The notes under the pieces are model-generated. The model was not told where the DNA came from. It saw nothing but the letters and a program-made list of their open reading frames with translations, and ran no database searches. Below are positions 18,849-48,487 of a DNA stretch of 54,709 nucleotides, piece by piece (position 1 is the stretch's first letter; each line of letters starts with the position of its first letter). A program made the position numbers and the translations under genes. This stretch comes from Rhodospirillales bacterium RIFCSPLOWO2_02_FULL_58_16 (lineage in GTDB: Bacteria; Pseudomonadota; Alphaproteobacteria; Rhodospirillales; 2-02-FULL-58-16). The stretch covers positions 1 through 54,709 of the forward strand of contig MIAA01000036.1 in the NCBI GenBank assembly GCA_001830425.1, given 5' to 3'.

Positions 18849-18852
18849 CGAA

Positions 18853-20061: not shown

Positions 20062-20079
20062 CGTCTCATTATTCTATAT

Positions 20080-20571: not shown

Positions 20572-20575
20572 GCCT

Positions 20576-21534: not shown

Positions 21535-21974
21535 TTCAGGTCAAACCCCAGGTCCAGGTGATAGCCCTCAAGCATGGGAAGGTCCAGAACATCAAGGCCG
21601 CTTCGGCGTGATATCTCGGCGATGACGCGGCTTATTCCTTTGTCGTCGGCGGCGGTGATGACAAACCATAGATTAAGGCGATGCTCGCGTTCATAGTTGT
21701 GGTTGACCTCGTCAAAGCCGCTGACCAGTTCGGCGACTTCCTCAAGGCGTTCGGCGGGCACTTCCATGGCGGCCAACGTGCCGACGCCTACGCCGCCGGG
21801 GCGAAATACGCAGCCGACGCGGCTGACGGCGCCGCTCTCGCTCAGTTCCTTCAGCGCCGCGATGACCTCGTCCTCGCCGACGTCGAGCCGGCGCGCAATG
21901 TCGGCGAAGGGACGTTCAGTCAGGGGGAAATCCCTCTGAAATTCGTCGAGAAGACGTTTTTCCAGATCATTCAT
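21525..21974 (-). CDS. nirD: NirD, siroheme decarboxylase subunit
   Basis: A 149-aa first subunit of the DLGH set: DEFQRDFPLTERPFADIARRL winged helix, GVGVGTLAAMEVPAERL strand, and EVNHNYEREHRLNLWFVITAADD with the conserved HNY and REHR residues. In some organisms D and L are fused; here all four are separate. It follows nirF by six bases. The name is by position (first) and type. Confidence 0.88.
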   Translation of the reverse strand: MNDLEKRLLDEFQRDFPLTERPFADIARRLDVGEDEVIAALKELSESGAVSRVGCVFRPGGVGVGTLAAMEVPAERLEEVAELVSGFDEVNHNYEREHRLNLWFVITAADDKGISRVIAEISRRSGLDVLDLPMLEGYHLDLGFDLKWN

Positions 21975-21980
21975 TGCTCA

Positions 21981-23150: not shown

Positions 23151-23476
23151 GGTTTTTCCTCCTTGTTGCGTAGAATCCGGACCAGCCATCTGGTTTCCTC
23201 GACGTTGATAAGGGGTCGCCAGGGCGGCATCGGCGTGCCGGGAATGCCGTCGAGAATGATAGAGGCCAGCGCATCGTCAGACCTCTCGGCGAGGAGCGAA
23301 GGCAGAAGAGGCGATCCCAGGCCGCCCTTGCGGGTCATGCCGTGGCACGATCCGCAATCATGGTCAAGAAGGTACAAGAGTTCCGTCTGCCGTTCGGACC
23401 TGATATCGGCGAATAAAACGGTGGAGAAGGCCGACAGACAGAGGGCAAGAACAACGATCAGGGCGTCGTTACGCAC
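23147..23476 (-). CDS. nirC: NirC-like monoheme cytochrome c
   Basis: A ~109-aa periplasmic cytochrome with a signal peptide (LIVVLALCLSAFSTVLFA), heme site CGSCHG, and distal Met in GTPMPPWRPL. NirC is thought to feed electrons to NirS or NirF/NirJ steps during d1 maturation. The frame runs back to 23518 inside nirE. The start chosen is GTG at 23476 (VRNDALIVV...), which overlaps the nirE stop by eight bases and leaves a normal signal peptide. Coupled to nirF by ATGA. Confidence 0.82.
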   Translation of the reverse strand: MRNDALIVVLALCLSAFSTVLFADIRSERQTELLYLLDHDCGSCHGMTRKGGLGSPLLPSLLAERSDDALASIILDGIPGTPMPPWRPLINVEETRWLVRILRNKEEKP

Positions 23477-24272
23477 TGGCCGAACATTCTTCCTCGTTGT
23501 CGAGAACCGCATCCTCATAGATCAATCCCTGCCAGTTCAGACTCTTGGCCAGACTGACGACCTTACCGATGATGATCATGACCGGCGTTTTATAGCCGAG
23601 CGCGACGACCAGAGCGGGCAATCGTTCAAGAGTGGTGACACATTGCCTTTGACCCGCCGCCGTTACCTTGAGCACCGCCGCCGCCGGCGTATCGGCGGCC
23701 ATCCCTGCGGCGATCAACTCGTCGGCGATCCGGGGAAGGTTGGCCAGTCCCATATAAAAGACGATGGTGGTGTTGGGGTCGGCCATGCCTTTCCAGTTCA
23801 GGTCGAGTTCGTCTTCGGACTGACAATGGCCGGTGACAAACTGCACGCCGGTGGCGAGAGCGCGGTGCGTCAGAGGAATGCCGAGAGCGCTGCCGGCCGC
23901 CGAGGCGGAGGTAACCCCCGGCACGACCTCGAAAGGTACGCCGTGAAGTTTCAGATATAAAGCCTCCTCGCTGCCGCGACCGAAAATAAACGGGTCTCCG
24001 CCCTTGAGGCGAACCACGGAATGGTTACTTTTGGCGAGGCTGACCAGCAGATCGTTGATATCGTCCTGGGGCATATGATGGTTGTTGGGAGCCTTGCCGA
24101 CGAAGATGCGGGCTTTTCCCGGCGGAACGAGGTCGAGAATTTCCGGCGAGACCAGACGGTCATAAACGACCACATCGGCACTCATAAGAAGCCGTCGGGC
24201 CTTGATCGTCATCAGATCAGGGTCCCCCGGCCCGGCCCCCACCAGATAAACACAACTGACGTCGCTCACCAT
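23469..24272 (-). CDS. nirE: NirE, uroporphyrinogen-III C-methyltransferase
   Basis: SAM-dependent enzyme that makes precorrin-2, the entry to siroheme and heme d1. The 267-aa core has VYLVGAGPGDPDLMTIKA, VVYDRLV, VRLKGGDPFIFGRG, VVPGVTSASAAG and PLTHR, all SUMT signatures. The open frame extends upstream to 24389, but the ATG at 24272 with GGGAGG just before it (GTG at 24269 also fits) gives the family-like start MVSDVSCVYLVGAG. First gene of the minus-strand nir operon. It is divergent from nirS, with 302 bases between. Confidence 0.92.
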   Translation of the reverse strand: MVSDVSCVYLVGAGPGDPDLMTIKARRLLMSADVVVYDRLVSPEILDLVPPGKARIFVGKAPNNHHMPQDDINDLLVSLAKSNHSVVRLKGGDPFIFGRGSEEALYLKLHGVPFEVVPGVTSASAAGSALGIPLTHRALATGVQFVTGHCQSEDELDLNWKGMADPNTTIVFYMGLANLPRIADELIAAGMAADTPAAAVLKVTAAGQRQCVTTLERLPALVVALGYKTPVMIIIGKVVSLAKSLNWQGLIYEDAVLDNEEECSASA

Positions 24273-24574
24273 AAACCTCCCGGAATCAGGCATTCGCAAC
24301 CGAATTTGAGGCAAGGGAAGCACAAAAAAGAATTCCGCGCCACCCTTTCCGGCGCAACCCTTTCCGAACTCCCCAAAAAAATTGTGCAAAAAGTCAAAGT
24401 CAAGGGTTGATTAGTTGGCAATAACCATTCACATTGTGCGGCAATGTCGTTTTCTACGCCTTCTCACGGCTAATTAAACGTTAGCTTTTCCTTATCTCGT
24501 TATTGGGGGGAAAGAGAAAAAGGAGAACGCCAGGTCAACTCTAGTGTGACTTTAATCAACAGGGAGGCAATTTT
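24273..24574. promoter_or_regulatory. Divergent nirE/nirS intergenic control region
   Basis: About 300 bases holding the promoters for both nir units. Seen directly: a TTGAT half-site at 24407-24411 (with TGGCA four bases on, so only one half is good), and GTGAC-TTTA-ATCAA at 24546-24559, close to the FNR/NnrR-family consensus TTGAT-N4-ATCAA. The second lies only ~15 bases before the nirS start codon, overlapping the leader, and so is oddly placed for an activator. No confident -35/-10 was fixed. GGGAGG precedes the nirS ATG. Confidence 0.5.
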
Positions 24575-26257
24575 ATGAAAAAACTAATGTTTGTCACATC
24601 AGTGGCAAGCTTGGTCGGCGGCCTGATGATGGGCACTGCGGCTATTGCCGTAGCGGAAGAAGCGGCGGCGCCCACGTTATCCAAAGAAGCGTTTGAGAAA
24701 TCGAACACGATTTTCTTCCAGCGCTGCACAGGCTGTCATGGCGTTCTGCGTAAGGGCGCCACCGGCAAGTCCCTTCTGCCCGGCCCGACGACTGACGCCA
24801 AGGGCGTGGTCACGGCCAAAGGCACGATCGCCATGGGCACCAAGGACCTTACCAAGATCATCACTCTCGGCACCGAAAACGGGATGGTCAACTTCGACGA
24901 GACTCTCTCCAAGCAGGAAATCGCCGATATGGCCGTCTATCTGCAAATGCCGGTCGCGGTTCCGCCAGAAATGAGCCTGGCCGACATGAAGAAGACCCAC
25001 AAAGTCCGCGTCGAACCGAAAGATTATCCGGCGAAGCCCGCTCATGACCGTAATTGGGAAAACTTCTTCATGGTCATCCTGCGTGACGCCGGCAAGGTCG
25101 GCGTTATCGACGGCGACAAAAAGGAAGTGGTCACCAGGGTCGACACCGGTTACGCCATTCACGTCCTGAAAGAGTCCTCTGAAGGTCGTTTCTGGTACAC
25201 CCAGGGCCGTGACGGCAGGATGAACAAGATCGACGTGTGGGCGAATCCCCCGGTATCTACCGCCGAAGCCAGAATCGCCTACGAAGCCCGTGACGTCGCC
25301 GTTTCCCACTATGGAGAATGGAAAGACAAATACGTCATCGGCGGCGGTTACTGGCCCCCGCACTTCGCCATCCTTGACGGCAAAACCATGGAGCCGCTGA
25401 AAGTGGTTTCCACCCGTGGCACCAACATCAACGGCGAATTCGTCAACGAAGCCCGCGTCGCCGCCATCTACGCCCCTGCGATGTCCCCGACATGGATGGT
25501 CGCGGTGAAGGAACTCGGTCAGGTGTGGCAGGTCGATTACAGCGATCTCGACAACCTGCGCGTCGAGAAGCAAAACACCCACTTGATGCTCCACGACGGC
25601 TTCTTCGACCCGTCCGGAAAGTACTTCCAGATTGCGGCCAATGCTTCCAACCGCATGGAATTTGTGGACACCGTTACCCGCAAGGCCGTCGGCTCGCTTG
25701 AAACCGGCGTGAAGCCCCATCCCGGACCCGGCGCCAACTGGAACGACGACAAGTGCGGACCGGTAGGAGCCACCGTCCATCTGGGCGAAGGCAAGATCAC
25801 CGCTTGGGGCAACGACCCCAAGGGCCGTCCGGACCAGGCCTGGAAGAAGTGCTATGATGAAAAGACCGGCGGTCCCGGCCTGTTCATCCGCACCCACCCC
25901 AATTCGCCTTATGTCTTTGCCGACCAGACTCTGATGCCGGATCCTGAAGTCAACCAGAGCGTCTCTGTTCTTGACAAGAAGACCGGCAAGGTCGTCAAGT
26001 CGCTCCGCGTAACCCAGGGCGAAGGCATGGCGGCTGTGCATATCGAGTTCAACAAGGACGGCTCCGAGGTTTGGGTGTCCGCCTGGAACAAGAAGCGTCC
26101 CGCCGCCGCTGCCGGCGACAAGGCTGCTATCGTAAGCAACACAGGCGAAATCGTCGTCTATGACAGCAAGACGCTCGCGGAAAAGGCCCGCATCAAGGGA
26201 CTCGAAACCCCCACGGGTAAGTTCAATATCTACAGCCGGAAAAATCGCGTAGGCTAA
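24575..26257 (+). CDS. nirS: Cytochrome cd1 nitrite reductase (NirS)
   Basis: Periplasmic enzyme that reduces nitrite to NO. A signal peptide (~1-27) precedes heme c site CTGCHG at 51-55, then an eight-bladed d1 propeller. The two active-site histidines of the family are visible: LMLHDGFFDPSG and KPHPGPGANWND (equivalent to His327 and His369 of Pseudomonas NirS). HPNSPYVFADQ and AAVHIEFNKDGSEVWVS are also present. The 560-aa length is normal. A strong AGGGAGG ribosome site and a following terminator suggest a short unit, perhaps read through into the diheme cytochrome. Confidence 0.96.
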   Translation: MKKLMFVTSVASLVGGLMMGTAAIAVAEEAAAPTLSKEAFEKSNTIFFQRCTGCHGVLRKGATGKSLLPGPTTDAKGVVTAKGTIAMGTKDLTKIITLGTENGMVNFDETLSKQEIADMAVYLQMPVAVPPEMSLADMKKTHKVRVEPKDYPAKPAHDRNWENFFMVILRDAGKVGVIDGDKKEVVTRVDTGYAIHVLKESSEGRFWYTQGRDGRMNKIDVWANPPVSTAEARIAYEARDVAVSHYGEWKDKYVIGGGYWPPHFAILDGKTMEPLKVVSTRGTNINGEFVNEARVAAIYAPAMSPTWMVAVKELGQVWQVDYSDLDNLRVEKQNTHLMLHDGFFDPSGKYFQIAANASNRMEFVDTVTRKAVGSLETGVKPHPGPGANWNDDKCGPVGATVHLGEGKITAWGNDPKGRPDQAWKKCYDEKTGGPGLFIRTHPNSPYVFADQTLMPDPEVNQSVSVLDKKTGKVVKSLRVTQGEGMAAVHIEFNKDGSEVWVSAWNKKRPAAAAGDKAAIVSNTGEIVVYDSKTLAEKARIKGLETPTGKFNIYSRKNRVG

Positions 26258-35876: not shown

Positions 35877-37538
35877 GTGTCAGTTAAAATAAAACCGATA
35901 TCCGTCAAAGCGGAAGAATCGCCGACCAAAGCGGCGCAGTTGAGGGCGATGATAATGTCGCCCGAGATTGAGTTTCTTATGGAGGCTCACGACGGCCTGT
36001 CCGCCAAGATCGTCGAAGAGTCGGGCTTCAAGGGCATTTGGGCCTCCGGCCTGTCGGTATCGGCGGCAATGGGGCTGCGCGACAATAACGAGGCGTCGTG
36101 GACCCAGGTTCTTGACGTAATGGAGTTCATGTCGGACGCCACCTCGATTCCCATCCTGATGGACGGCGATACCGGCTACGGCAATTTCAACAACCTCCGC
36201 CGGGTAGTGCGCAAAATGTGCGAGCGCGACATCGCCGGCATCTGCATCGAGGACAAGGTGTTCCCCAAGACCAACTCGTTCATCGGCGAGCGCCAGCAAT
36301 TGGCCGAAATCGATGAGTTTTGCGGTAAAATCCAGGCTGGCAAGGACAGCCAGACCAATGCGGATTTCTGTTTGGTGGCGCGAATAGAAGCCCTGATCGC
36401 CGGTTGGGGGCTGGACGAAGCCCTGCGCCGCGCCGAGGCCTACCATAAGGCCGGCGCCGACGCCCTGCTGATCCATTCCAAACGCTCAACCGCCGACGAA
36501 GTGTTGGCTTTCAAGGCTGAATGGGGCAACCGCTGCCCGGTGGTGATCGTCCCCACCAAGTATTTCAACACCCCCACCGACGAGTTCCGCAAGGCCGGAA
36601 TTTCGGTGGTTATCTGGGCCAACCACAACATGCGCGCCGCCATTACCGCCATGCGCGACATCAGTTGCCGCATTCAGCGCGAGGAAAGTCTGGCCGGCGT
36701 CGAGGACAGCATCGTCAGCGTTCAGGAAGTTTTTGCAATCACCGGCGATGACGAACTGGCGGAGGCCGAGAAACGTTATCTGCCTTCCAAGCGCGACGAG
36801 CCGAGGGCCGTTATTCTCGCCGCCTCACGCGGACGCCAGTTGGGCAAACTCACCGAAGACCGTCCCAAGTGCATGGTTGATGTTCGCGGTCAACCCCTGC
36901 TGCGCCGTCTGGTGGATACCTTCAACGAAGGCGGGGTGCGCGACATCACCGTGGTTCGCGGCTACCACAAGGAGATGATCAATCTGCCCTCGATCAAGAC
37001 CGTTGACAACGATGTTTACGCCACCACCGGCGAGGTCGCCAGCCTTGCCTGCGCCGTAGACAGCATTCAGGGGGAATGTCTGGTCGCTTACGGCGACATC
37101 CTGTTCCGTCATTATATACTTGATAGAATCAGGGCGGCTTCCGGCGATATCGTATTGGCGGTGGACGCCATGTGGGAGAGTCGCCGCTCCGACTCCGCCG
37201 AATGGGTGCGCGACCTGTGCGCCTGCACCACCGGCTTTTCCACCGATTACCTGAAGGACGATCATGTGCATCTCAGCCGCATCGGTCCCGACCTGAAAAC
37301 AGATACGGTGAACGGCGAGTGGATCGGTCTGGCCAAGCTTACCGCCGAAGGAGGCCGACTGGTGCGCGCCAAAATGGCGACGATGCGCGAAGACGGCAGC
37401 CTTCATAAGGCAGGTCTGGTCGGCCTGTTCGCCGGATTGCTGGAAGACGGTCACAAAATTTCCGTGCTTTATGTCACCGGCCACTGGCTGGATGTTGACG
37501 ACACCTCCGACCTTGCAAAAGCGCGTGAGTTCCTGTGA
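35877..37538 (+). CDS. PEP phosphomutase fused to a PntC-like nucleotidyltransferase
   Basis: A 553-aa bifunctional protein. Residues ~20-300 are phosphoenolpyruvate mutase (PEP to phosphonopyruvate, the C-P bond-forming step): [21 protein letters not shown] with the catalytic Asp, MDGDTGYGN, and the diagnostic [11 protein letters not shown]. Residues ~310-553 are a MobA/GT-A-fold nucleotidyltransferase: [24 protein letters not shown] and VAYGDILF. Phosphonate cytidylyltransferases (PntC) make CMP-phosphonates for head-group transfer. GTG start with GAGGA upstream. It overlaps ppd (GTGA). Confidence 0.88.
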
Positions 37539-38674
37539 TCGGAGCCGACGATTTTCTGGCTCCCGCCCGTGAGGCGGGATTTGATTTCTTTACCGGCGTT
37601 CCCTGCTCGCTGCTGACGCCGCTGATCAATCGGGTGATCGGCGATAAAAGGCTGACCTATATCGCCGCCGCCAGCGAAGGCGAGGCGGTGGGCATCGCCG
37701 CCGGCGCCTGGCTGGCCGGACACAAGACGGCGGTCATGTGCCAGAACTCGGGGTTGGGCAACACGGTGAACCCGTTGACCTCGCTGAACTTCCCGTTTCG
37801 CATTCCGACGCTGCTGATCGTAACCTGGCGCGGGGAGCCGGGGCTTGCCGATGAACCCCAGCACGAATTGATGGGCGAGATCACACCGGCGCTGCTGGAC
37901 GTTATCAGGATTCCTCACCGACCATTCCCCTCCTGCCGGGAAGATGTGGCGAAAGCGCTGGCCGAGGCCGATTCGGTTATGGAGCGCAGCGGTCTTCCCT
38001 TCGCCTTCATCATGCAAAAAGGCAATGTCGCTTCCGAGCCTCTGAAGGCAGCGCCGGCGGCGGCGCCTCCCCATGGGCGTTCGGTGGACCTGCGGAACGG
38101 GAAAAATGCCCCGCCGTCGCGGATGCAGACCCTTGAATGCCTGTCGGCGGAGATTCCCGATGCGGCGGCGGTCATCGCCACCACCGGAAAATGCGGACGC
38201 GAGCTGTTCACTATCGCCGACCGGCCTCAGCACTTTTATCAGGTGGGATCGATGGGATGCGCCGCCGCCTCCGGCCTCGGCGTCGCCCTCAATGTGCGCC
38301 GACCGGTGGTGGTGCTTGACGGGGACGGCGCGGCGTTGATGAAGATGGGGGCGCTGGCCACTATCGGCGCGTACGCTCCCGGCAATCTGATCCATATCGT
38401 TCTCGACAACGGCGTCTACGATTCCACCGGCGGCCAGCCGACGGCGGCGGCCAATGTCGATTTTGCCGCTATCGCCATGGCCTGCGGCTATGCCGGAGCA
38501 TCTTCATGTGATTCTCTTGAAGGATTCGCCGAGGCCTTGGCGCAGGCTCTATCAACGCCAGGACCTCACTTAATTCATATGCGAATCTCCATCGGCTCCA
38601 CGACCGACCTCGGACGACCCTCCGTCAAGCCGTTCGAGGTTGCCCGTCGCTTCAAGGCTTTTCTTGCCGGCTAG
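37535..38674 (+). CDS. ppd: Phosphonopyruvate decarboxylase
   Basis: ThDP-dependent enzyme that makes phosphonoacetaldehyde and drives the mutase reaction forward. The 379-aa product has the N-terminal PYR domain ([30 protein letters not shown] with the catalytic Glu, QNSGLGN) and the C-terminal PP domain with [31 protein letters not shown]. Translation starts at GTG overlapping the end of the fused mutase gene. The 3' end is directly joined to a MITE-like repeat. The next enzyme expected (AEP transaminase or a reductase) is not in the window. Confidence 0.93.
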
Positions 38675-38861
38675 AGCGTTATCCGACCAAATGGAATTGC
38701 CTGCGTTGCGCATTGGCGAGGCGATCCGCGAGACGCGACGTGAAGAGCGATGCAAAAGCATCGGTCGAACGGCGCAACGAAGCGGGCGTCCGCCAAGGCG
38801 CAACCCGAAGGGCCGGGGTCTTTTTCGGCGCAGGCGGTTCCATTTGGTCGAATAATGCTCT
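38673..38861. mobile_element. MITE-like element with 33-bp terminal inverted repeats
   Basis: The left end AGAGCGTTATCCGACCAAAT... (38673-38705) and right end (38829-38861) are inverted repeats matching at 29 of 33 positions. The interior is GC-rich, about 120 bases, with no credible gene. The left end overlaps the last two bases of the ppd stop codon (TAGAGC), so insertion has provided or altered the 3' end. This type of GACCAAATGG-bearing repeat is common in alphaproteobacterial intergenic DNA. Confidence 0.78.
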
Positions 38862-38897
38862 AAGACGCGCTAACGTAATTCGGAAAGGGAGAGGGCC

Positions 38898-39512
38898 ATC
38901 AGTCATAACACCTGGATACACCGCGCCGCGCGCGCCACCCTGGTGCGCTCCCTGGCGGCAACGGCGGTGACTCCCAATCACCTGACAACCGTGCGTCTGA
39001 TTGTCGGCCTTACCGCAGCGGCGTGCATGATGGTCGGCGAGCAGCCTTGGCGCGTCATCGGCGGCGGCGTGTTTGTCCTGTCGGTGTTTCTGGACCGGGC
39101 CGACGGCGATCTGGCCAGAGTGACCGGAAAATCCAGCCCGTGGGGGCATACCTATGACCTGATCGCCGACGGGATTTGCAATACTTTGATCTTCATCGGC
39201 CTGGGGGTCGGCCTGACGACAAGCAGCCTCGGAATATGGGCCGCGCCGCTGGGGGTAGTCGCCGGCATTGCCGTGGCGTCAATCCTTTGGCTGGTGATGC
39301 GCATGGAGGAGATAGACGGACAACGGGCGGCGGAGTTGAAGAGCTTTTACGGATTCGACGCCGATGACGGCATCCTGCTGGTCCCGATCTTTATCTGGAT
39401 GGGCTTTGCACAGGAGTTGTTGGTCGTCGCCGCCGCAGTTATTCCCGTCGTCACCCTGTTCTTCATGGTGATGTACCGAAAGAAACAGAAAACAACGGGC
39501 CGCAAAAAATAA
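38898..39512 (+). CDS. CDP-alcohol phosphatidyltransferase-family protein, copy 1
   Basis: A membrane enzyme of the CDP-alcohol phosphatidyltransferase superfamily, with the complete catalytic pattern D-x2-DG-x2-AR-x8-G-x3-D-x3-D (DRADGDLARVTGKSSPWGHT-YDLIAD). Several TM helices follow. No ATG/GTG/TTG lies before the GTG at 38943, which would drop the first helix. The in-frame ATC at 38898, preceded by GGGAGAGGG, gives SHNTWIHRAARATLV..., which aligns with the N-termini of the two paralogues here. I list that start. Likely transfers a (phospho)alcohol or CMP-phosphonate-derived group to a lipid. Confidence 0.8.
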   Translation: MSHNTWIHRAARATLVRSLAATAVTPNHLTTVRLIVGLTAAACMMVGEQPWRVIGGGVFVLSVFLDRADGDLARVTGKSSPWGHTYDLIADGICNTLIFIGLGVGLTTSSLGIWAAPLGVVAGIAVASILWLVMRMEEIDGQRAAELKSFYGFDADDGILLVPIFIWMGFAQELLVVAAAVIPVVTLFFMVMYRKKQKTTGRKK

Positions 39513-39557
39513 GAGACGTTAAGGTTTGATAAATATAATCCGTGAGAAAATCAGACC

Positions 39558-40079
39558 ATGTTCAGATTCAGTCTCAAACTTCCCGTAATTCTATTAAGCA
39601 TCGGCATCGCCGTGTCCAGCTGTTCCAATACGGACGCCACAACCGGCGAAAAGTCCGGGAAACCGGATATCGGGAAAGCCTCCTCCCGCTTTGCCGACAT
39701 CCCGATGCCGGCCAAGTCCGATATCGATATGGACAGCACCATGGTATTCGGCGGCGATGAGGCATGGTTGGGCAGACTGGCCATCAAATCATCACATAAC
39801 ACCAACGATATATTTGATTTCTTCAAACAGGAATTGCCGGGGTACGGCTGGCGGGAAATCACCTTGATTCGCTCGACGGTGAGCGTACTCACCTATTCCC
39901 GCGAAAACCGAGTCGCCACCATCCAGATTCAGAGCACCACGCTGGGCGGCAGCAGTGTTATGCTGACCGTTTCCCCCCGTGACAGCAAGACTCCGCAAGA
40001 TTCGCCGGGATCATATGGCGGCGGCACATCCCTTCCGGGCCGGGGCGGACTGCCGGCGCCGGTGCAAATCATTCCGTAA
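39558..40079 (+). CDS. Putative outer-membrane or periplasmic lipoprotein
   Basis: A 173-aa protein with a lipoprotein signal ending IAVSSC at residue ~22. The mature part has DIPMPAKSDIDMDSTMVFGG, a domain with NDIFDFFKQELPGYGWREI, and a Gly/Pro-rich tail. The middle motif recalls small alphaproteobacterial lipoproteins of unknown function. No enzyme motif. It lies between the first CDP-alcohol enzyme (same strand) and the SPOR protein (convergent, 3 bases). Role in the envelope cluster is inferred from location only. Confidence 0.65.
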   Translation: MFRFSLKLPVILLSIGIAVSSCSNTDATTGEKSGKPDIGKASSRFADIPMPAKSDIDMDSTMVFGGDEAWLGRLAIKSSHNTNDIFDFFKQELPGYGWREITLIRSTVSVLTYSRENRVATIQIQSTTLGGSSVMLTVSPRDSKTPQDSPGSYGGGTSLPGRGGLPAPVQIIP

Positions 40080-40082
40080 ACA

Positions 40083-41474
40083 TCAGCCTGATCCCATAAA
40101 ACTCGGCTCGCAATATTGGCGGCGAAGTTTCAGTTTGGCGCAGATATCGGCGGCGGCGGCGTCGCTGTTGAGAGGTCCGGCCTTAAGCCGGTAAAAGATT
40201 CCTTTGCCCTGTCCCATATCGACCTTGGAAACCTCAGGCGTAAGATCGCCGAGGAGAGTCGGGTGGGCGCGCTTCACTTGCGCCCATCCGCGATCAGCGG
40301 CGTTTTGCGAACGGTAAGAGGCGAGATGGACGGCGGGTTGCGTCCCGGAGCGCTTGGCGCCGGACTTGGCGGACACCGCCGCGCCGTTGCCTGCTGACGG
40401 ACTGTTGGTCGGCGTGCCGGCGGGCTGCATGGAGCGTTCGATGGCGGTTCGCTCCTTGGCGTACTCATCGGTGTCGATCAGCTTTTCATCCCGCAACGTC
40501 TCCAGTTTGCGCACGGCGTCGGCGGCTTCCATCAAACCTTTGGGCGGCGCTCCGGGATTGGCTACCGATACCGGCGCCGAGGGCATCAGGGCGTCAAGGA
40601 TCATGGTGCGCTCGGCGGAATGTTGACTGACGGAAAGGGCGCGCATTTCAAGCGCCCGCCCGATAGCCCTGAGGCGTCCGGATATCTGTTCCGACGACGG
40701 CACCGGACGATCCATGCCGGACGCCGCAGGCGGAGAAGTAAGAGGCAACAGAGCGCCTATATTGGCCTGACGGCGGGTATTGAATTCTTCCGGGGTAATC
40801 AGGCTTTGATCGCGCAACGCGGTCATGGCCTTGAAACGGGCGACGACATTGGCTTCATTGCCGCTGAACGTGGGGGCCAATCCCGCCGCCCGTGCGCTGG
40901 ATTCGGGGCTGGGCGGCGGCAGCGCCGTCCTGCCCAGCAGGGCCGGACCGGCAGGAGCGCCGCTGATTATCGGGTTGCCGGCGTCCGCCGGAAAACCGGG
41001 CGGGGACGGCAAACTTTCTCCGTAACCGCTGTTCTCCATGCCTCCCACAATGTTTCCGCTTTCCAGCAGGGCGAGATTGACGCTGGCGATCTCGGAAACC
41101 GGGCGCGTCGATAACTCTTTCCACACGACAAGCTGTTTGCTGTTGTCAGGCCTGATGGCGAGGATTGATTCATACATTTCACGGGCCTTCACCGCCCGCC
41201 CGGTGCTTTGATAAATAAACCCAAGAGCCAGCAAGGCGTGGACATCCTTGGGATCGGTTCGCAACGCCTTGTTGAAGTGGACTTCGGCTCCCGCGTAATT
41301 GCCCTTGGCCATTTCGGCAAGGCCGAGTTCCGCCCGGTCATTGGAGCCGAACAGCATTCCGGTGTCCCAGAAAGACGAATCGACTATTCCCCGACCTTCG
41401 GAATAGCCGGCGCAAGCGCCAAGCCCATAAACCATAAGCGCGACGACCGCCGTACGCCTGATCATTCCTTTCAC
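40083..41474 (-). CDS. Lipoprotein with TPR, SHOCT-like motifs and C-terminal SPOR domain
   Basis: A 463-aa lipoprotein (GLGAC lipobox near residue 21). Residues ~50-110 hold TPR-like repeats (AEVHFNKALRTDPKDVHALLALGF). Two short similar modules follow, FKAMTALRDQSLITPEEFNTRR and LETLRDEKLIDTDEYAKER, which look like SHOCT-type oligomerisation motifs. The last ~80 residues form a SPOR domain (VHLASYRSQNAADRGWAQVKR ... IFYRLKAGPL), which binds denuded septal peptidoglycan. A cell-division or envelope scaffold is likely; nothing pins the partner. Confidence 0.78.
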   Translation of the reverse strand: MKGMIRRTAVVALMVYGLGACAGYSEGRGIVDSSFWDTGMLFGSNDRAELGLAEMAKGNYAGAEVHFNKALRTDPKDVHALLALGFIYQSTGRAVKAREMYESILAIRPDNSKQLVVWKELSTRPVSEIASVNLALLESGNIVGGMENSGYGESLPSPPGFPADAGNPIISGAPAGPALLGRTALPPPSPESSARAAGLAPTFSGNEANVVARFKAMTALRDQSLITPEEFNTRRQANIGALLPLTSPPAASGMDRPVPSSEQISGRLRAIGRALEMRALSVSQHSAERTMILDALMPSAPVSVANPGAPPKGLMEAADAVRKLETLRDEKLIDTDEYAKERTAIERSMQPAGTPTNSPSAGNGAAVSAKSGAKRSGTQPAVHLASYRSQNAADRGWAQVKRAHPTLLGDLTPEVSKVDMGQGKGIFYRLKAGPLNSDAAAADICAKLKLRRQYCEPSFMGSG

Positions 41475-41660
41475 GATTCTCTATCCCTTTCCCGAGATCG
41501 CGAAGAATTTTGGAAGCCCCCGCCGAATTCTTCAATAGGCAAAAATCAAATCACTAACTATAGTGCCTCATAATGGGACGACATACTATCATTTGATGAG
41601 CCATAAGCAACAGGGAATGTTAAAATATTTTCCTACGACTTACAGTGAAAAATAATGCGG
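41475..41660. other. Intergenic stretch without a gene
   Basis: AT-rich compared with neighbours, with no start signals or hairpins worth naming. It separates the SPOR-protein start from the second CDP-alcohol gene's end. Confidence 0.4.
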
Positions 41661-42263
41661 TTATTCCGCCTTGTTTTTCAGCCTCAGCAGGGTCCATAGG
41701 GTCCACAGGCAATAGACGGAGGCGCCGATACCGCAAGCAATGAAAAAAGGCTCCAGGTAGCCGAGCCAGGTGATGGGGGCCAGCAGGTAAATGCCGTCTT
41801 CCAGCTCGAAACCGGCGAATCCGGGATAGCCGACGGTCTCGCCGCCCAACGCCTTGTCGATGTTGAGGTTAAGGAACATGGACAGGATGGCGGAAGTCGT
41901 CCCCGCTACGCCGAGGACGACCGCCCAGCTTCCCAACGGCCCGTTATACAAGCCGGCGCCGATGCAAAAGAACAGCGTTCCGTAACTCAGCGCCCCGGCA
42001 ATGTAATCAAGGAAGTAGCCGAGCCTGGAAGAGGAGGCCTGCTGGCGCGCCAATTCACCGTCAAAATGATCCATGAAGCGGGCCAGCACGAATAAACCGG
42101 CTCCCCAGTTAGCCATTTGCGAATCGCCGACGGCGAACAGGCCGGCGCCGGCAAGCGCCGTCAACAACGATAAAATCGTAAGGTGATTGGGGGTAACCGG
42201 CGTATTAACCAGCGGTTTAACGAGTATGCGGGCGATTCGCTGATCCCAGGGAGGACCTTGCAT
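41661..42263 (-). CDS. CDP-alcohol phosphatidyltransferase-family protein, copy 2 (active-site Asp missing)
   Basis: A 200-aa paralogue of copy 1 (TPVTPNHLTILSLL versus TAVTPNHLTTVRL). The motif reads DHFDGELARQQASSSRLGYFLD-YIAG: the first three aspartates are present, but the fourth, which is the proposed catalytic base, is Gly. Several TM helices follow. The start is ATG at 42263 with AAGGAG six bases before; a frame to 42299 is an overextension. It is divergent from the RND gene, and the region between (42264-42369) includes a direct repeat AAGCGCCTGTT. It may be inactive or have changed its chemistry. Confidence 0.82.
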   Translation of the reverse strand: MQGPPWDQRIARILVKPLVNTPVTPNHLTILSLLTALAGAGLFAVGDSQMANWGAGLFVLARFMDHFDGELARQQASSSRLGYFLDYIAGALSYGTLFFCIGAGLYNGPLGSWAVVLGVAGTTSAILSMFLNLNIDKALGGETVGYPGFAGFELEDGIYLLAPITWLGYLEPFFIACGIGASVYCLWTLWTLLRLKNKAE

Positions 42264-42369
42264 CGGAAACTCCTTAAAAGACGGCCTGAATGATGACACG
42301 CTTGGCAGGCCGACGCTTTCGGCACTATAAGCGCCTGTTAAGCGCCTGTTAAATGTATGGATTTGAATT

Positions 42370-45006
42370 ATGCTCGACGCCGCCGCAAAAGCCTATCGCC
42401 GATTTCTCGTGCGTTGGGTTGACTACGTTCGCCGATTTGCTCTGTTGGTTATCTTCGCCTCAACGGCTGCCTCTGTCGGTTCGGTCTATTATCTGTCCAA
42501 TAACATTTCGATTAACACCAAAACTACCGATATGTTGTCGTCGGAGCTTCAATTCCGCAAGGATTCGGCGGAGCTTAATGCCGCCTTTCCCCAGTTTTCG
42601 GACAACATTCTGGTCGTAATCGAGGGTGAAACCCCGGATTTGGCCGATGACGCCACCTTGATGCTGGCGGCGCGATTGCGCCAATACCCCGAGCTGTTCG
42701 GCGGTGTCTACGACATTGCCGGAGACCATTTTTTCCGCCGCAACGGGTTGCTTTTTCTTAATGAGAATGACTTAAATGAACTAAGCGACCGCTTGGCCGA
42801 GGCTCAACCGTTTCTCGGCAAGTTATGGCAGGACATGAGTCTGCGCGGCCTGTTCAAAATGCTGGAGCTGGTTATCGACGAAACCGGCAAGAAGGACGGC
42901 AAGGCGCCGATAGAGATAAGCGCCTTGCTGAATTCCATCGCCGATGTTGCGGAAAAACAGGCCGCCGGAAAGTTCTCGAGCCTGTCCTGGCATGATCTTA
43001 TGCGCGGCAAGACCGGCGCAAAAAAGGACAAACGACGCTTTCTTATGATTCAACCGGCGTTGGATTTCAGCACCCTGCAACCGGCAATCAAGGCCATGAA
43101 AGCGTTGAGAGGCCATGCCCGCGAGTTATCTCTGGATAAACAACGCGGAGTGAGCGTCCGTCTCACCGGCTCGGCGGCGTTGGGGCATGAGGAGATGATG
43201 AGCGTACAGGAGGGCATGGGCATGGCCGCCCTGTTGTCGCTGTTCCTGGTCGGCGGCTTGTTGATTATCGGGCTGCGCTCGGTTCGCCTCCTCATCGCCA
43301 TTTTCGCCACCCTGATTATGGGGCTGATCTGGAACGCCGCCTTTGCCATCGCCGCCTTCGGGCAGCTTAATCTTTTATCGGTGGCCTTTGCGGTGCTGTT
43401 CATCGGTCTCAGCGACGAGTTCGGGGTTCATCTGGCCCTTCGTTACAAGGAGGGAATAGATAACAATGAGTCGCATGCGGCGGCGCTTCGCCACGCCGCC
43501 GACGGCGGCGGCGACGCCTTGACGCTGTGCGCCGTATCCGCCGCTATCGCCTTCTATTCCTTTCTGCCGACGGATTATATCGGACTGGCTGAACTCGGCC
43601 TTATCGCCGGCACCGGGATGTTCATCGCCCTGTTCGCCAATATGACCATATTGCCGGCCGTTCTTACGCTGTCGCCTTTGTCTGCGGAGCCGAAAACAGA
43701 TGAGCGCGAACTGTCCGCCTCGGCGGAGTGGTTCGGCTACAGCCACGCCAAATCAATCGCCTGGGCGGCGCTGGTCCTCGGGCTTGCCGCAGCGGTATTT
43801 TTGCCGAAAGCCGGGTTCGATTCCGATCCCCTGAATCTGAAAGACCCGAAGTCGGAGTCGGTGTCCACCCTGTTTGACCTGATGGATGATTCCCGCACCA
43901 GTCCTTATTCCATCACCGTTCTCGCCAATAATCTTGATCAGGCTGAAGAACTTGCCGGCAGGCTTGATGTCCTTGGCGAGGTGGATTCTACGGAAACCCT
44001 TGCCGACTATGTTCCCGTGGACCAGGACAAGAAACTGGAAATTATCGGCGCCATGGCATTGTTCCTTGCCCCGTCGCTATCGGCTGAAGGCAAGACGCCG
44101 CCGCCGGCGAAAGGACGCGCCGAAGCGCTTGCTTCGCTCAGGGCAAAACTCAGGCTGCCGGCCACGGGGGATCATGCGGCAAGCGCCCGTCGTCTTGAGG
44201 CCGCCTTCTCGGGGCTGATCAAAGAATCTTCCGTTGACGGAGACGTATTGAATGAGCTTGAGGCAAGACTGCTTTCAGGCCTTCCCGGCCGGCTTCGCGT
44301 CCTGCGGGAGTCCCTGACGGCCGAACCGGTCACCATAAAAGATATCCCCGCCACCTTGCGCGATCACCATATCGCCGCCGACGGCCGGGCGCGGCTTAAG
44401 GTTTATCCCAAGGAAAACCTGCAAAACAAGGAGGCGCTTTACCGCTTCGTCAATGCCGTGCGCAGCATCGCGCCCCACTCTACCGGAATGCCGGTGGTCA
44501 TACTGGAGGCCGGCAATACGGTAGTCGCCGCCTTTTGGCAGGCGGCATTGCTGGCCGTCAGCGGCATCTCGCTGATGCTTTTGGTGGTGTTGCGGTCCTT
44601 CCGCGACAGCCTGCTGGTGTTCGCGCCGCTGTTGCTGGCGTCGCTGCTGACCGTCGCCATATCGGTTTTGTTCAACATTCCGTTCAACCTCGCCAACATT
44701 ATAGCGTTGCCTCTTTTGTTCGGGCTTGGCGTGGCGAGCGGCATTCATCTGGTAATCCGTGAACGCGAGGAGGCCGGATCGGCCGCCGCCTTGATGACCA
44801 GCACCCCCCGCGCCGTGCTGTTCAGCGCGCTTACCACCATCGGATCGTTCGGCTCCATGGCCTTGTCCGGCCATCCCGGAACGTCAAGCATGGGCGTGTT
44901 GCTGACCATCACCATCACGCTGAGTCTGTTAAGCACCCTGTTTGTGTTGCCGGCGCTGATGGTCATCTGGCCGCCGGTAATTAAAAATAATAAGGGGAAT
45001 ACATGA
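42370..45006 (+). CDS. RND/MMPL-family lipid exporter (HpnN-like)
   Basis: An 878-aa inner-membrane transporter with two homologous halves: TM1 (~25-45), a large periplasmic loop, a five-TM bundle (~225-410), second loop, second TM bundle (~700-870). The motifs FIGLSDEFGVHLALRYKEG and LFGLGVASGIHLVIREREE mark the transmembrane relay. This matches the HpnN family, known for moving hopanoids to the outer membrane in Rhodopseudomonas. No squalene-hopene cyclase is in the window. Encoded with a CDP-alcohol enzyme (ATGA overlap), so a polar lipid cargo is likely. Confidence 0.85.
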   Translation: MLDAAAKAYRRFLVRWVDYVRRFALLVIFASTAASVGSVYYLSNNISINTKTTDMLSSELQFRKDSAELNAAFPQFSDNILVVIEGETPDLADDATLMLAARLRQYPELFGGVYDIAGDHFFRRNGLLFLNENDLNELSDRLAEAQPFLGKLWQDMSLRGLFKMLELVIDETGKKDGKAPIEISALLNSIADVAEKQAAGKFSSLSWHDLMRGKTGAKKDKRRFLMIQPALDFSTLQPAIKAMKALRGHARELSLDKQRGVSVRLTGSAALGHEEMMSVQEGMGMAALLSLFLVGGLLIIGLRSVRLLIAIFATLIMGLIWNAAFAIAAFGQLNLLSVAFAVLFIGLSDEFGVHLALRYKEGIDNNESHAAALRHAADGGGDALTLCAVSAAIAFYSFLPTDYIGLAELGLIAGTGMFIALFANMTILPAVLTLSPLSAEPKTDERELSASAEWFGYSHAKSIAWAALVLGLAAAVFLPKAGFDSDPLNLKDPKSESVSTLFDLMDDSRTSPYSITVLANNLDQAEELAGRLDVLGEVDSTETLADYVPVDQDKKLEIIGAMALFLAPSLSAEGKTPPPAKGRAEALASLRAKLRLPATGDHAASARRLEAAFSGLIKESSVDGDVLNELEARLLSGLPGRLRVLRESLTAEPVTIKDIPATLRDHHIAADGRARLKVYPKENLQNKEALYRFVNAVRSIAPHSTGMPVVILEAGNTVVAAFWQAALLAVSGISLMLLVVLRSFRDSLLVFAPLLLASLLTVAISVLFNIPFNLANIIALPLLFGLGVASGIHLVIREREEAGSAAALMTSTPRAVLFSALTTIGSFGSMALSGHPGTSSMGVLLTITITLSLLSTLFVLPALMVIWPPVIKNNKGNT

Positions 45007-45716
45007 CGACCGGCCCGAAGCAACCCTATGTGCCGCCGCCGCCAAAGACCCTGTTTCCCCTGGTCCGACATCTATCGTTTTTCATGACTCCGCTGCTCGC
45101 AAAAACGCCGATCAGCGCCAATCAGACAACCACGATCTCGATGCTTTCAGGGCTTGGTTGCGCATGGGCGATGACGCGAGGGAGCTGGGCCATGGAAACG
45201 GCCGGCGGCGTCATGCTGGTTTTGTGTTACATCCTTGATAATTGTGACGGCGAGATCGCCCGCATCAAGGATCAATGCTCAACGTTCGGCATGCACTATG
45301 ACAGCTTCGTTGATTTTATCGTTCATGTCGGGTTCTTCGCCGGCCTCGGCGTCGGGGTCGCCGGATCGACCGGGCAAGAGGCATGGCTGTGGATGGGGAT
45401 GGCGGCGGCGGCGGGGGGAACCGTCAACTATGTCATCAGCCTCTTTTTCGCCGCCAAAACCCGCCGAAAGCATGAAGATGCGGGCGATTACGATCCCACC
45501 GGGCGTCTGGCCGCCGAAAAACCCGTGACGCCTGAAAAATGGCAGGAATGGGCTGTCTTCATATTACGCGAACTCAGCCGCGCCGATTTTTGTTTTATCG
45601 TTCTCGGGCTTGCCCTTTTCGATTTGACCTGGGTGCTTTTGCCGGCCGGGGCCGTCGGCGCCCAGGTCTACTGGGCGGCGCTTTTCATCCGTAACGTCAA
45701 CGAGTTTCATGTTTAG
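45003..45716 (+). CDS. CDP-alcohol phosphatidyltransferase-family protein, copy 3
   Basis: A 237-aa membrane enzyme with the complete motif DNCDGEIARIKDQCSTFGMH-YDSFVD (all four Asp). The N-terminus has a Pro-rich start (YVPPPPKTLFPLVR) and the conserved-looking PISANQTTTISML. A ~60-residue soluble insert with AAKTRRKHEDAGDYDPTGR distinguishes it from copies 1 and 2. ATG overlaps the stop of the RND gene (ATGA) and the gene runs 11 bases before the flippase-like gene, so all three are one unit. Probable lipid head-group transferase. Confidence 0.87.
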   Translation: MTTGPKQPYVPPPPKTLFPLVRHLSFFMTPLLAKTPISANQTTTISMLSGLGCAWAMTRGSWAMETAGGVMLVLCYILDNCDGEIARIKDQCSTFGMHYDSFVDFIVHVGFFAGLGVGVAGSTGQEAWLWMGMAAAAGGTVNYVISLFFAAKTRRKHEDAGDYDPTGRLAAEKPVTPEKWQEWAVFILRELSRADFCFIVLGLALFDLTWVLLPAGAVGAQVYWAALFIRNVNEFHV

Positions 45717-45727
45717 GGAATGTCGGC

Positions 45728-46717
45728 TTGCGCTATCTGAAATTCCTCTATCTTGCAATCGGCCTCGGTCTCCTGGTTCTGGTGCTTGGTGAGACTGATA
45801 TTGCCGATGTGAGTGAACGGGTAATTCAGGTCGGATGGGGGCTGGCCGTGATTTTCGGCCTTTATCTCATCGCCTTCACCATTGACTCCTTCACCTGGCA
45901 GATGGCGCTGGTTGAGGTTCCGCTGAACGGCGTCTGGATGTATCGAACCTGGAAGGCGCGGATGGTAGGCGAGGTTTTCAACACGGTAATGCCGGCCGCC
46001 GGCATGGGTGGCGAGCCGGTCAAGGCCATACTGCTGAAGAAATACTACGGCATCGGATACCGCGAGGGAACGGCGTCGCTGATCCTCGGCAAAACCATCA
46101 ACATGGCCTCCCTGATGATTTTCCTCATCGGCGGCTTTGTCCTTATGTGGAGCGCGCCGGCGCTGCCCTTATCCTACAAGTTCGTCTCCGGCCTGGGACT
46201 TTTGACCCTGGGAATGGGCATCGGCCTGTTTTTCATCATTCAACGGCTGAAAATTACATCAATTACCGGCGCCTGGATCGGTCGTCGGCGAATCGGCGCC
46301 TGGGTCAACGGCGTGGTCCACCACATCCATGACATGGACGAGCGGCTGGTCCGTTTTTACACTCAACACAAGCGGCGGTTCGCCGGCGCGGTGATGCTGG
46401 CCCTGGTCAACTGGCTGCTCGGCGCCGCCGAAGTCTATTATTCGATGCTGTTTCTCGGGCATCCGATATCCCTGGCCGATGCCTGGATTATCGAGGCGGC
46501 GGCGCAACTGGTGCGCGCCGGAGCATTCTTTATTCCGGCCGGGATCGGCATTCAGGAGGGCGTGTTCTTTGTCGTCTGCTCGGCGATGACCGGAGTTCCG
46601 GCGCTGGGGGTGGCGGTGGCGGTGGTGCGACGAATCCGCGAAGCGTTGTGGCTGGCGTGGGGAACGCTCCTCGGCTTCATGTTCACCTTGATGCCGGAGC
46701 ATGAAGCCGCGAAATGA
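45728..46717 (+). CDS. Flippase-like lysylphosphatidylglycerol synthase TM family (HpnL-like)
   Basis: A 329-aa polytopic protein of the PF03706 family: TM segments at ~2-20, 35-52, an elongated block including NTVMPAAGMGGEPVKAILLKKYYGIGYREGTASLILGKTIN (family signature), and more TM helices up to ~320. Relatives flip lipids, as in MprF; HpnL is a hopanoid-linked member. TTG start at 45728. Lacks any catalytic aminoacyl-transferase domain. Coupled by position to the CDP-alcohol enzyme, suggesting that it flips the product. Confidence 0.82.
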   Translation: MRYLKFLYLAIGLGLLVLVLGETDIADVSERVIQVGWGLAVIFGLYLIAFTIDSFTWQMALVEVPLNGVWMYRTWKARMVGEVFNTVMPAAGMGGEPVKAILLKKYYGIGYREGTASLILGKTINMASLMIFLIGGFVLMWSAPALPLSYKFVSGLGLLTLGMGIGLFFIIQRLKITSITGAWIGRRRIGAWVNGVVHHIHDMDERLVRFYTQHKRRFAGAVMLALVNWLLGAAEVYYSMLFLGHPISLADAWIIEAAAQLVRAGAFFIPAGIGIQEGVFFVVCSAMTGVPALGVAVAVVRRIREALWLAWGTLLGFMFTLMPEHEAAK

Positions 46718-46722
46718 ACCGG

Positions 46723-47361
46723 CTATTTCGCGGTCATGGCTTCGGCTTTTTCATTGAGAACCTTAACGAGTCCGTCAACGCCTGAATTTTTCAGCACCAT
46801 GCGATATTCAGAGCGGCGCACGGCAAGTTCGCTGATCGAATTATCGAGCAACACATCAACGATTTGCCACTGCTCATTATTCATTCTCAGCACATAGGTG
46901 ATGCCCACGGGCGACTTCTGAGGGCGTAAAATCCTGGTTTCAACCAGCAGCGTCTGCTGCGGTCCCGGCCTTTCGCCGACGGTCTCGAAAGCCTCGCCGG
47001 AAAAGCCGTCAAATTGGGACGCATAGGTGCTGATGCTTAATTTCGTGAAGGCATCAGAGAGATTTTTCTGCTGCTCGACGCTTGCCGCATTCCAAAAATC
47101 ACCGGATGCTATCTTTATCATCTTGGGAAAATCGAAGGTCTGCTCAATTTCCGGCGCCAGACGACTATAGCGTCCCTTTATGCCGAGGGCATCGGCTTCT
47201 TTCATTACCGCCAGCAGGTTTCCATGAAATTTCTCGACAATGGCTCGCGGAGTGATGCTTGTAGAGGCGCTTGCGGAGGCGGCGCCGGCGCTGCCGGAAA
47301 GAACCGTCAACGACATAACGAGAAAAACAAGGGCCTTGAGAGTTGTAACGTGGTAATTCAT
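46723..47361 (-). CDS. MlaC/Ttg2D-like (HpnM-like) periplasmic lipid carrier
   Basis: A 212-aa exported protein with a signal peptide (~1-26) and the MlaC/Tol_tol_Ttg2 fold: SRLAPEIEQTFDFPKMIKIASGDFWN, then SISTYASQFDGFSGEAFETVGE and GITYVLRMNNEQWQIVDVLLDN. MlaC ferries phospholipid between the inner-membrane MlaFEDB and the outer-membrane MlaA complex. HpnM is a specialised member. No MlaFEDB genes are in the window. Convergent with the flippase gene, and divergent from mlaA after 223 bases. Confidence 0.85.
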   Translation of the reverse strand: MNYHVTTLKALVFLVMSLTVLSGSAGAASASASTSITPRAIVEKFHGNLLAVMKEADALGIKGRYSRLAPEIEQTFDFPKMIKIASGDFWNAASVEQQKNLSDAFTKLSISTYASQFDGFSGEAFETVGERPGPQQTLLVETRILRPQKSPVGITYVLRMNNEQWQIVDVLLDNSISELAVRRSEYRMVLKNSGVDGLVKVLNEKAEAMTAK

Positions 47362-47584
47362 GCTTTAGATTCCCGGTGGACTATTTTGAAACTATGATGT
47401 TAACCATAGCAGTTTCTAGAACCTTGATGCTTTCCTGACAATAGGGTGTGACAAAAAAACACACATTAACCATAATTTAGATTTTTACGGATATCACGGT
47501 TGCAGAAACGCGGAAGTTAACTTAGATAAGATAACCGAGTCGCGTTCTTCGGGTCGAGGGACATGTTTTTATGGGGAGGCTCTT

Positions 47585-48487
47585 TTGATAAGTTCCAATA
47601 AAGTACTTTACTTCTTTAACGCCCTTTTGCTGACGGGCGCCCTTGTCGCCGGAAGCGCTACGCTTTCAAAGGCCGGTGATTTTGAAAAAACCGCCCCTGT
47701 CGGCATCGATGGTCCCGGAGCGGCGACCGCTGATCAATTGGCGGAAGGCGCCGCCGCCGCAGGCGGTGATGATTTCAACGATCCCATCGAGCCTTTTAAC
47801 CGTTTTATGTTCGATGTTAACGAAGGCATTCAGGACTTCCTGCTCAGGCCCATCAGCACGGTCTATAATTATTTGCCGGCGGGTTTCCGCAACGGCGTAG
47901 GCAACCTCATTCATAACCTCAACACCCCGGTTATCCTGGCCAACGATCTGCTTCAGTTAGAGGGGCAGCGGGCCATGAGGACCTTCGGGCGCTTCGTGAT
48001 CAATACCATTGCGGGCGCCGGCGGCATCGGAGACGTCGCCGGAGACCTGGGCATTCCCTCGCATAAAGAAGACTTCGGACAAACCCTCGGCTCCTACGGC
48101 GTAGGCGAAGGGTTCTATCTTGTCCTGCCGCTGTTCGGACCGTCCAATCCCCGCGACGCCGTCGGCAAGATCTTTGTCGACAGCTATTTCGATCCCCTGT
48201 CCATGTATCTGAAGAATACGGATGAGGATGCGGCCTACTGGTCCATGATGGCCGGCAAGGGCATCAGCGAATATGCTGGCGTGATGGAAGAGCTTAATCA
48301 GATCAAGAGCACGTCCATTGACTACTACGCGGCGATCCGCAGTATGTATCGCCAGAAGCGCAAGGCTGAAATCGGCAACGGCCAGGATACCAACCTTCCG
48401 CCCATTCCTGACCTGGACCTCAGCCTGAATATCGATGATAACAAAAAAGAGAGCGAAACAGCGGCGGCAAGCGTCGTTACCAAGTAG
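47585..48487 (+). CDS. mlaA: MlaA (VacJ-family) outer-membrane lipid-asymmetry lipoprotein
   Basis: A 300-aa protein of the VacJ/MlaA family that removes mislocalised phospholipids from the outer leaflet. Diagnostic: NDPIEPFNRFMFDVNEGIQDFLLRP, TFGRFVINTIAGAGGIGDVA, HKEDFGQTLGSYGVGEGFYLVLPLFGPSNPRDAVG and DPLSMYL. The signal region (~1-31) has no lipobox Cys at the expected place (ATLSKAGD), so it may be a soluble or differently anchored form. TTG start with GGGGAGG upstream. A strong terminator follows. Confidence 0.9.
   Translation: MISSNKVLYFFNALLLTGALVAGSATLSKAGDFEKTAPVGIDGPGAATADQLAEGAAAAGGDDFNDPIEPFNRFMFDVNEGIQDFLLRPISTVYNYLPAGFRNGVGNLIHNLNTPVILANDLLQLEGQRAMRTFGRFVINTIAGAGGIGDVAGDLGIPSHKEDFGQTLGSYGVGEGFYLVLPLFGPSNPRDAVGKIFVDSYFDPLSMYLKNTDEDAAYWSMMAGKGISEYAGVMEELNQIKSTSIDYYAAIRSMYRQKRKAEIGNGQDTNLPPIPDLDLSLNIDDNKKESETAAASVVTK

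Follow-up and report, generated by a model that had tools for sequence, protein, structure and literature searches.

The genes at positions 35,877 to 48,487 of a 54,709-nucleotide stretch of DNA from Rhodospirillales bacterium RIFCSPLOWO2_02_FULL_58_16 (the window; contig C36 of a genome of 2.73 Mb in 53 contigs) combine phosphonate synthesis with lipid head-group transfer and lipid trafficking. An earlier note on this DNA had assigned them to the synthesis of a phosphonate-headed lipid other than a hopanoid. The evidence presented here shifts that finding from a phosphonolipid to a phosphonate head group in a hopanoid locus. We tentatively read the window as half of a hopanoid locus into which phosphonate head-group genes are inserted; 2-aminoethylphosphonate (AEP) or a derivative would be activated with CMP, put on a bacteriohopanepolyol and exported, and we give this reading a little less than even confidence. 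Hopanoids, the bacterial counterparts of cholesterol, are key lipids of membranes and also serve as fossil biomarkers. Their head groups, to our knowledge, are sugars, cyclitols, amines and nucleosides.

The earlier note had judged the Hpn-like proteins unlikely to serve hopanoids on the ground that no squalene-hopene cyclase (SHC) lies in the window. The premise fails because the same genome carries a hopanoid cluster on contig C11, which was reached by two routes, a match to the nucleotidyltransferase (NTase) domain fused to PepM and a search for SHC. The order on this contig is NT2 (a MobA-like NTP transferase of 251 amino acids, which adjoins HpnA), HpnA, IspH, HpnH, an HpnG-like stretch (38%), SHC, HpnE and HpnD, then HpnC and HpnB. 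Family membership was judged throughout by bit scores of profile models (TIGR, NF and PF models) against the cut-offs of those models. By this measure SHC (TIGR01507, 779 bits, cut-off 431) and HpnH (TIGR03470, 547 bits, cut-off 225) place hopanoid biosynthesis in the genome, and HpnA (495 vs 368), HpnB (537 vs 379), HpnC (275 vs 250), HpnD (326 vs 279) and HpnE (353 vs 283) also exceed their cut-offs. The idea that hopanoids are absent here was accordingly rejected.

All the genes that the earlier note had named were recovered by gene calls and family models, the HpnL model and the strict HpnN model being the two not reached, and the two gene groups do lie within 10 kb, the end of the second being 9.8 kb past ppd. 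The features of the locus are as follows (CDP-AP, CDP-alcohol phosphotransferase).

35877..37538, plus strand: pepM-NTase fusion, PEP (phosphoenolpyruvate) mutase with a MobA-like NTP transferase domain
37535..38674, plus strand: ppd, phosphonopyruvate decarboxylase, with a 4-base overlap with pepM
38674..38860, no strand: imperfect inverted-repeat element between ppd and AP1
38898..39512, plus strand: CDP-AP1, with the full motif and a probable ATC start
39558..40079, plus strand: small open reading frame (ORF) of 173 amino acids, N-terminus lipoprotein-like, no Pfam match
40083..41474, minus strand: TPR/SPOR protein
41661..42299, minus strand: CDP-AP2, PF01066, with the motif's fourth Asp replaced by Gly
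42370..45006, plus strand: HpnN-type RND transporter, TIGR03480
45003..45716, plus strand: CDP-AP3, PF01066, with the full motif
45728..46717, plus strand: HpnL-like flippase of the LPG-synthase TM type, PF03706
46723..47361, minus strand: HpnM (MlaC family), periplasmic carrier, TIGR03481
47585..48487, plus strand: MlaA-family outer-membrane lipoprotein, PF04333

Some relatives join the window's half and the C11 half in one place. Genes in their loci were identified by homology-weighted ORF calling and tblastn. The two halves are contiguous, wholly or largely, in five loci (L141, L140, L129, L134 and L132), with an order of the type HpnE-SHC-HpnG, HpnH-IspH, HpnA-NT2-(GST)-PhyH-PepM-Ppd-AP1-AP2-HpnN-(AP3)-HpnL-HpnM-MlaA. 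Across 60 genomes of the order, our own included, 25 carry the PepM-NTase fusion, a count that leaves out two SHC-positive genomes, G019 with a fusion of 39% identity and G038 with the PepM domain only. PepM stands near strict hopanoid genes (HpnA, HpnH, HpnG, SHC or HpnN) in 11 of these 25 and on contigs shorter than 10 kb in another five. Linkage to HpnN, HpnM and MlaA is seen again in more than one family (several in all), and since the arrangement recurs across the order it is not due to chance. The claim that all the genes form one phosphonate system stands in part. PepM-Ppd, CDP-AP1 to AP3 and the HpnL-like gene do travel together, for example in G057 and G012 as the block NT2-PhnW-HpnL-AP3-AP2-AP1-Ppd-PepM-PhyH, while other contigs carry HpnN and SHC. 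HpnN, HpnM, MlaA, AP1 to AP3, NT2 and PhyH are also found at hopanoid loci of relatives that lack PepM, and are therefore not dedicated to phosphonate.

The distribution of these genes among the 60 genomes is nested. SHC is present in 47, and all genomes with the fusion (25), a strong NT2 match (37; E below 1e-50), an AP2-like gene (34) or the CDP-AP set (39) are among them; none of the 13 genomes without SHC has the fusion, a strong NT2 match or the set. The CDP-AP set is defined as an AP2-like match of at least 54% identity (34 genomes, with fragments in G005 and G028) or a CDP-AP beside HpnI (five more); G003, which has AP3 and no AP2 match, was excluded. All but one of the fusion genomes (24/25) also have the set, the exception, G056, being 76% complete. 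Fisher tests, uncorrected for shared ancestry, give 3e-4 for fusion and SHC, 4e-8 for set and SHC, and 0.018 for fusion and set within SHC-positive genomes.

Within the hopanoid locus, two conserved genes may or may not have PepM-Ppd inserted between them. PhyH, a 2-oxoglutarate oxygenase (e.g., L141 10914-11681), adjoins PepM or AP1 in many relatives, also where PepM is missing. PepM-Ppd lies between PhyH and AP1 in 11 loci, and PhyH directly adjoins AP1 in six; one of the six, L182, is from G014, a genome that has PepM-Ppd-PhnW at a different locus (L144). In another locus (L158, G015) AP1 and PhyH enclose Ppd but no PepM, which may be what is left of the pair. The hopanoid locus thus includes the CDP-APs, NT2 and PhyH whether PepM is present or not.

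The CDP-APs are also linked to HpnI, the enzyme with which synthesis of the glucosamine/cyclitol head of bacteriohopanetetrol begins. HpnI exceeds its cut-off in six of the 60 genomes, our own not among them, and in all six an HpnL homologue and at least one CDP-AP stand beside HpnI/HpnJ (AP3-type in five, AP1-type in five, both in four); the HpnL homologue of L193 passes TIGR03476 with 252. No match to PepM, Ppd or NT2 was found in the HpnI/HpnJ stretches of the six genomes. Their HpnN stretches gave no CDP-AP match in five cases, and that of G036 (L164) contains AP1. In G051, AP1, AP2 and HpnL occur on a further contig as well (L201). Hopanoid head-group genes are thus joined by CDP-APs in two settings, at HpnI/HpnJ and at the main locus.

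Outside the order, a cassette of CDP-AP, HpnL-like gene, NT2, PepM fusion, Ppd and AEP transaminase occurs in loci of Burkholderia, Cupriavidus, Trinickia and Nitrococcus, and in Nostoc with no HpnL match. In two Pararobbsia the cassette has HpnN and HpnH nearby, and their HpnN pass the strict model NF052374 with 1266 and 1274; a lichen betaproteobacterium has it next to a fragment of HpnN; and in three gammaproteobacterial metagenome-assembled genomes (MAGs) HpnH is close by, with HpnB, HpnM and MlaA in two of them as well. The test for SHC covered 50 of the 80 fusion loci and found it with 19 of 20 loci that have both NT2 and CDP-AP and with eight of nine that have one of the two. In Pararobbsia and the gammaproteobacteria, a gene cluster close to PepM (c27) was considered as SHC and rejected, as it is DXS, an isoprenoid-precursor enzyme.

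The head group itself can be followed through the phosphonate genes. PepM scores 390 bits with TIGR02320 (cut-off 320), carries the PF12804 domain and contains the EDKxxxxxNS motif of PEP mutases; Ppd scores 435 bits with TIGR03297 (cut-off 313). The closest fusion homologue among the named public contigs listed, at 78%, is from an uncultured Rhodospirillales MAG. The AEP transaminase lies outside the window, as the earlier note had observed, and was found on contig C50 (PhnW; TIGR02326, 489 bits, cut-off 401), where no further phosphonate gene was recognised next to it. A search of our own genome for PhyH gave no match, although the search had no positive control (relatives match a related query at 59-67%), and hydroxylated AEP is therefore not proposed for this organism.

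Two proteins could activate the phosphonate. The PntC study (PMC6697681) describes how AEP is activated by cytidylyl transfer, the frequent fusion of PepM to PF12804, and the motif GxG(T/S)R..PK with Glu104, the residue at the position of the AEP amine, in the T. denticola enzyme, in which alanine at Arg15, Lys25 or Lys153 leaves less than 10% activity. We aligned 94 fused domains and 75 NT2 rows, excluding short and duplicate rows. In the fused domain of the window (36789-37535) the motif reads SRGRQ, then PK, so that SRGxx takes the place of GxG(T/S)R. The motif Arg is found in one of the 94 rows (two have gaps) and the Lys of PK in 93, and all 94 have Tyr or Phe at the place of Glu104; the catalytic pair of Arg and Lys is thus incomplete. 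NT2 reads GVGSR and PPK, with Arg and Lys kept in 75 of 75 rows. To call the fused domain PntC-type, as the earlier note did, is therefore a weak assignment, and NT2, which keeps both residues, is the better candidate for making a CMP-phosphonate, whether its head is AEP or another.

AP1 and AP3 are CDP-alcohol phosphotransferases by PF01066 and the motif D..DG..AR...G...D...D. The nearest solved relative of AP3 is AF2299 (4o6m). In a tree of 97 of 134 rows, AP1 groups with the single CDP-AP of the Burkholderia, Cupriavidus, Nitrococcus and Nostoc phosphonate cassettes (97/75, under the tool's threshold). AP2, which matches PF01066 and has the highest identities among relatives of the three, departs from the motif; with Gly at the fourth catalytic Asp, it could be a pseudoenzyme, a partner subunit or an enzyme of altered chemistry. 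A second, odd AP2-like copy in G016 (L199, 51%) has a motif that ends in Asn. For trafficking, the window encodes an HpnN of TIGR03480 (1005 bits, cut-off 752) related to the solved HpnN structures 5khn (453 bits) and 6wu0 (451 bits), an HpnM of TIGR03481 (203 bits, cut-off 160) and an MlaA of PF04333 (215 bits, cut-off 25).

The data show that the genes are present, which families they belong to, that their linkage is conserved and that their co-occurrence is nested; from this we infer the enzymatic steps in this organism, the hopanoid acceptor and the export. PepM would form phosphonopyruvate, Ppd phosphonoacetaldehyde and PhnW AEP, which a cytidylyltransferase, more likely NT2 than the domain fused to PepM, would convert to CMP-AEP. 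It is plausible that a CMP-phosphonate head is passed to a lipid. CDP-AP1, with AP3 and possibly AP2, would transfer AEP to a hydroxyl of a bacteriohopanepolyol supplied by SHC, HpnH and their partners; the HpnL-like protein would flip the product, and HpnN, HpnM and MlaA would carry it toward the outer membrane.

Several observations weigh against the hopanoid reading. Shared ancestry explains much of the co-occurrence. PhnW is present in 22 of 25 genomes with the fusion and 18 of 35 without it; it is not tied to PepM, and its co-occurrence was rejected as specific evidence. Nine of the 25 fusion genomes, G057 and G012 among them, have no strict hopanoid neighbour of PepM in the stretch fetched. 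The CDP-APs persist where PepM is gone and may serve another head, and the HpnI link is not fully independent of PepM, since five of the six HpnI genomes (all but G036) have the fusion on another contig. The background outside the order is high, with SHC at 15 of 21 fusion loci that lack both NT2 and CDP-AP, and one cassette with both, in Burkholderia sp. lig30 (L025), gave no SHC match. In the window, HpnN scores 752 against 1100 with the stricter equivalog NF052374 and the flippase 156 against 196 with the HpnL model TIGR03476, and the Gly of AP2 is constant in its clade (27/27 rows, clade support 98/98). NT2 has Asp, as in LicC, at the place of Glu104 in 73 of 75 rows and so lacks that Glu; Glu104 may not define the PntC family, given that PMC6697681 describes the other PntC tested, from A. 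rimae, as nearer to LicC. No report of a phosphonate hopanoid was found in the open-licence literature searched, and the main text of a 2025 survey of 63 alphaproteobacterial hopanoid structures does not contain "phosphon" (PMC12583986).

Rhodopseudomonas-type hopanoid clusters carry the HpnI/J/K head-group genes with SHC, HpnH, HpnA, HpnN and HpnM. Our genome shares the last five and differs in that HpnI does not exceed its cut-off and the CDP-AP set and PepM-Ppd are present. The Nostoc II / Burkholderia phosphonate cassette, as described in PMC5987646, shares CDP-AP, 2-oxoglutarate oxygenase, HpnL, NTase, PepM, Ppd and AEP transaminase; it is read there as phosphonolipid synthesis, in a paper whose main text does not contain the word "hopanoid". 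Here there are three CDP-APs, and the cassette lies inside a hopanoid locus. A hybrid cluster of Roseomonas (family Acetobacteraceae) shares the SHC-PepM linkage, and its authors suggested an "undiscovered terpene-phosphonate" (PMC8776678, 2021). The general terpene-phosphonate idea is thus already voiced, and we found no other work joining hopanoids with PepM in the open-licence literature searched. CDP-AP, NT2, HpnN and a mechanism are absent from the accessible account of that cluster; the CDP-AP set, HpnI link, insert pattern and NTase motif split were found neither there nor elsewhere in the literature searched.

The main rival is a classical phosphonolipid, in which AP1 would move AEP from CMP-AEP to diacylglycerol and the hopanoid genes would be neighbours that share envelope-trafficking proteins. 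The bacterial CDP-APs known to us act in glycerolipid synthesis, which speaks for this role, as do the Burkholderia cassettes, whose fetched flanks contain no strict hopanoid gene, and the presentation of the same gene content under phosphonolipid synthesis in Nostoc and Burkholderia (PMC5987646). We nevertheless consider it unlikely, because the CDP-AP set is confined to SHC-positive genomes (39/39) and stands beside HpnI/HpnJ in every HpnI genome (6/6), and because cassettes with both NT2 and CDP-AP almost always come with SHC (19/20), albeit over the background noted above. Less likely again are two systems at one place, with the CDP-AP/NT2 set adding a phosphate-linked head (inositol-, glycerol-, ethanolamine- or choline-phosphate type) to hopanoids and PepM-Ppd feeding a separate product. 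The persistence of the CDP-AP set, NT2 and PhyH without PepM fits such a division, as do the LicC-like Asp of NT2 and its best NCBIfam match, an inositol-1-phosphate cytidylyltransferase fusion (71 bits, far under the 580 cut-off). It is opposed by the position of PepM-Ppd between PhyH and AP1, with ppd abutting AP1 in several relatives, by the best match of PhyH, a methylphosphonate hydroxylase (166 bits, cut-off 500 not reached), and by the retention of the set in nearly all fusion genomes. A phosphonoglycan or secreted phosphonate, with the PepM product on polysaccharide or lipopolysaccharide and the hopanoid linkage an inherited accident, is very improbable: glycans or lipids are the predicted targets of most PepM clusters (PMC6697681) and nine fusion genomes lack the hopanoid neighbour, yet the linkage recurs in beta- and gammaproteobacteria and no polysaccharide glycosyltransferase was recognised as common to the cassettes, whose neighbour gene clusters are annotated in part.

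The locus is not one operon, because three of its genes (AP2, TPR and HpnM) run on the minus strand. AP1 and AP2 are separated by the small ORF and the TPR/SPOR gene, neither of which has relatives clustering with genes of the other loci compared. The inverted-repeat element has an RNA fold (38665-38900) of -127.6 kcal/mol with a z-score of -8.9, and no other copy of its arm occurs in the window at up to three mismatches; because ppd and AP1 abut in relatives, it is read as a local insertion. The alignment of AP1 with its relatives begins at ISHNTWIH, where the codon is ATC (38898), with an in-frame stop nine codons upstream and no ATG, GTG or TTG between. The start is thus most likely this ATC rather than the GTG at 38943. 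AP1 genes start with ATC, ATT or ATA at the conserved place in eight loci, the window included, and in four of these (the window, L126, L128 and L182) no ATG, GTG or TTG precedes the upstream stop 6-12 codons away, suggesting that the rare start codon may be conserved. Elsewhere, positions 17295-26257 of the window contain a radical SAM gene and three genes with a cytochrome d1 domain, which together look like a denitrification / heme d1 cluster.

A wider proposal can also be made, which we hold with somewhat less confidence than the reading of the window itself. Many Rhodospirillales and some beta- and gammaproteobacteria may put phospho- or phosphono-heads on bacteriohopanepolyols in a CMP/CDP-dependent manner to form phosphonohopanoids, the CDP-AP/HpnL set acting as the transfer machine, PepM-Ppd as an optional supply of AEP, and a second copy of the set serving the HpnI/HpnJ/HpnK heads. 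If this is true, a phosphonate-headed, zwitterionic hopanoid would link phosphonate and hopanoid biology; it might go unnoticed by standard hopanoid methods, and could provide the envelope with a stable phosphorus store.

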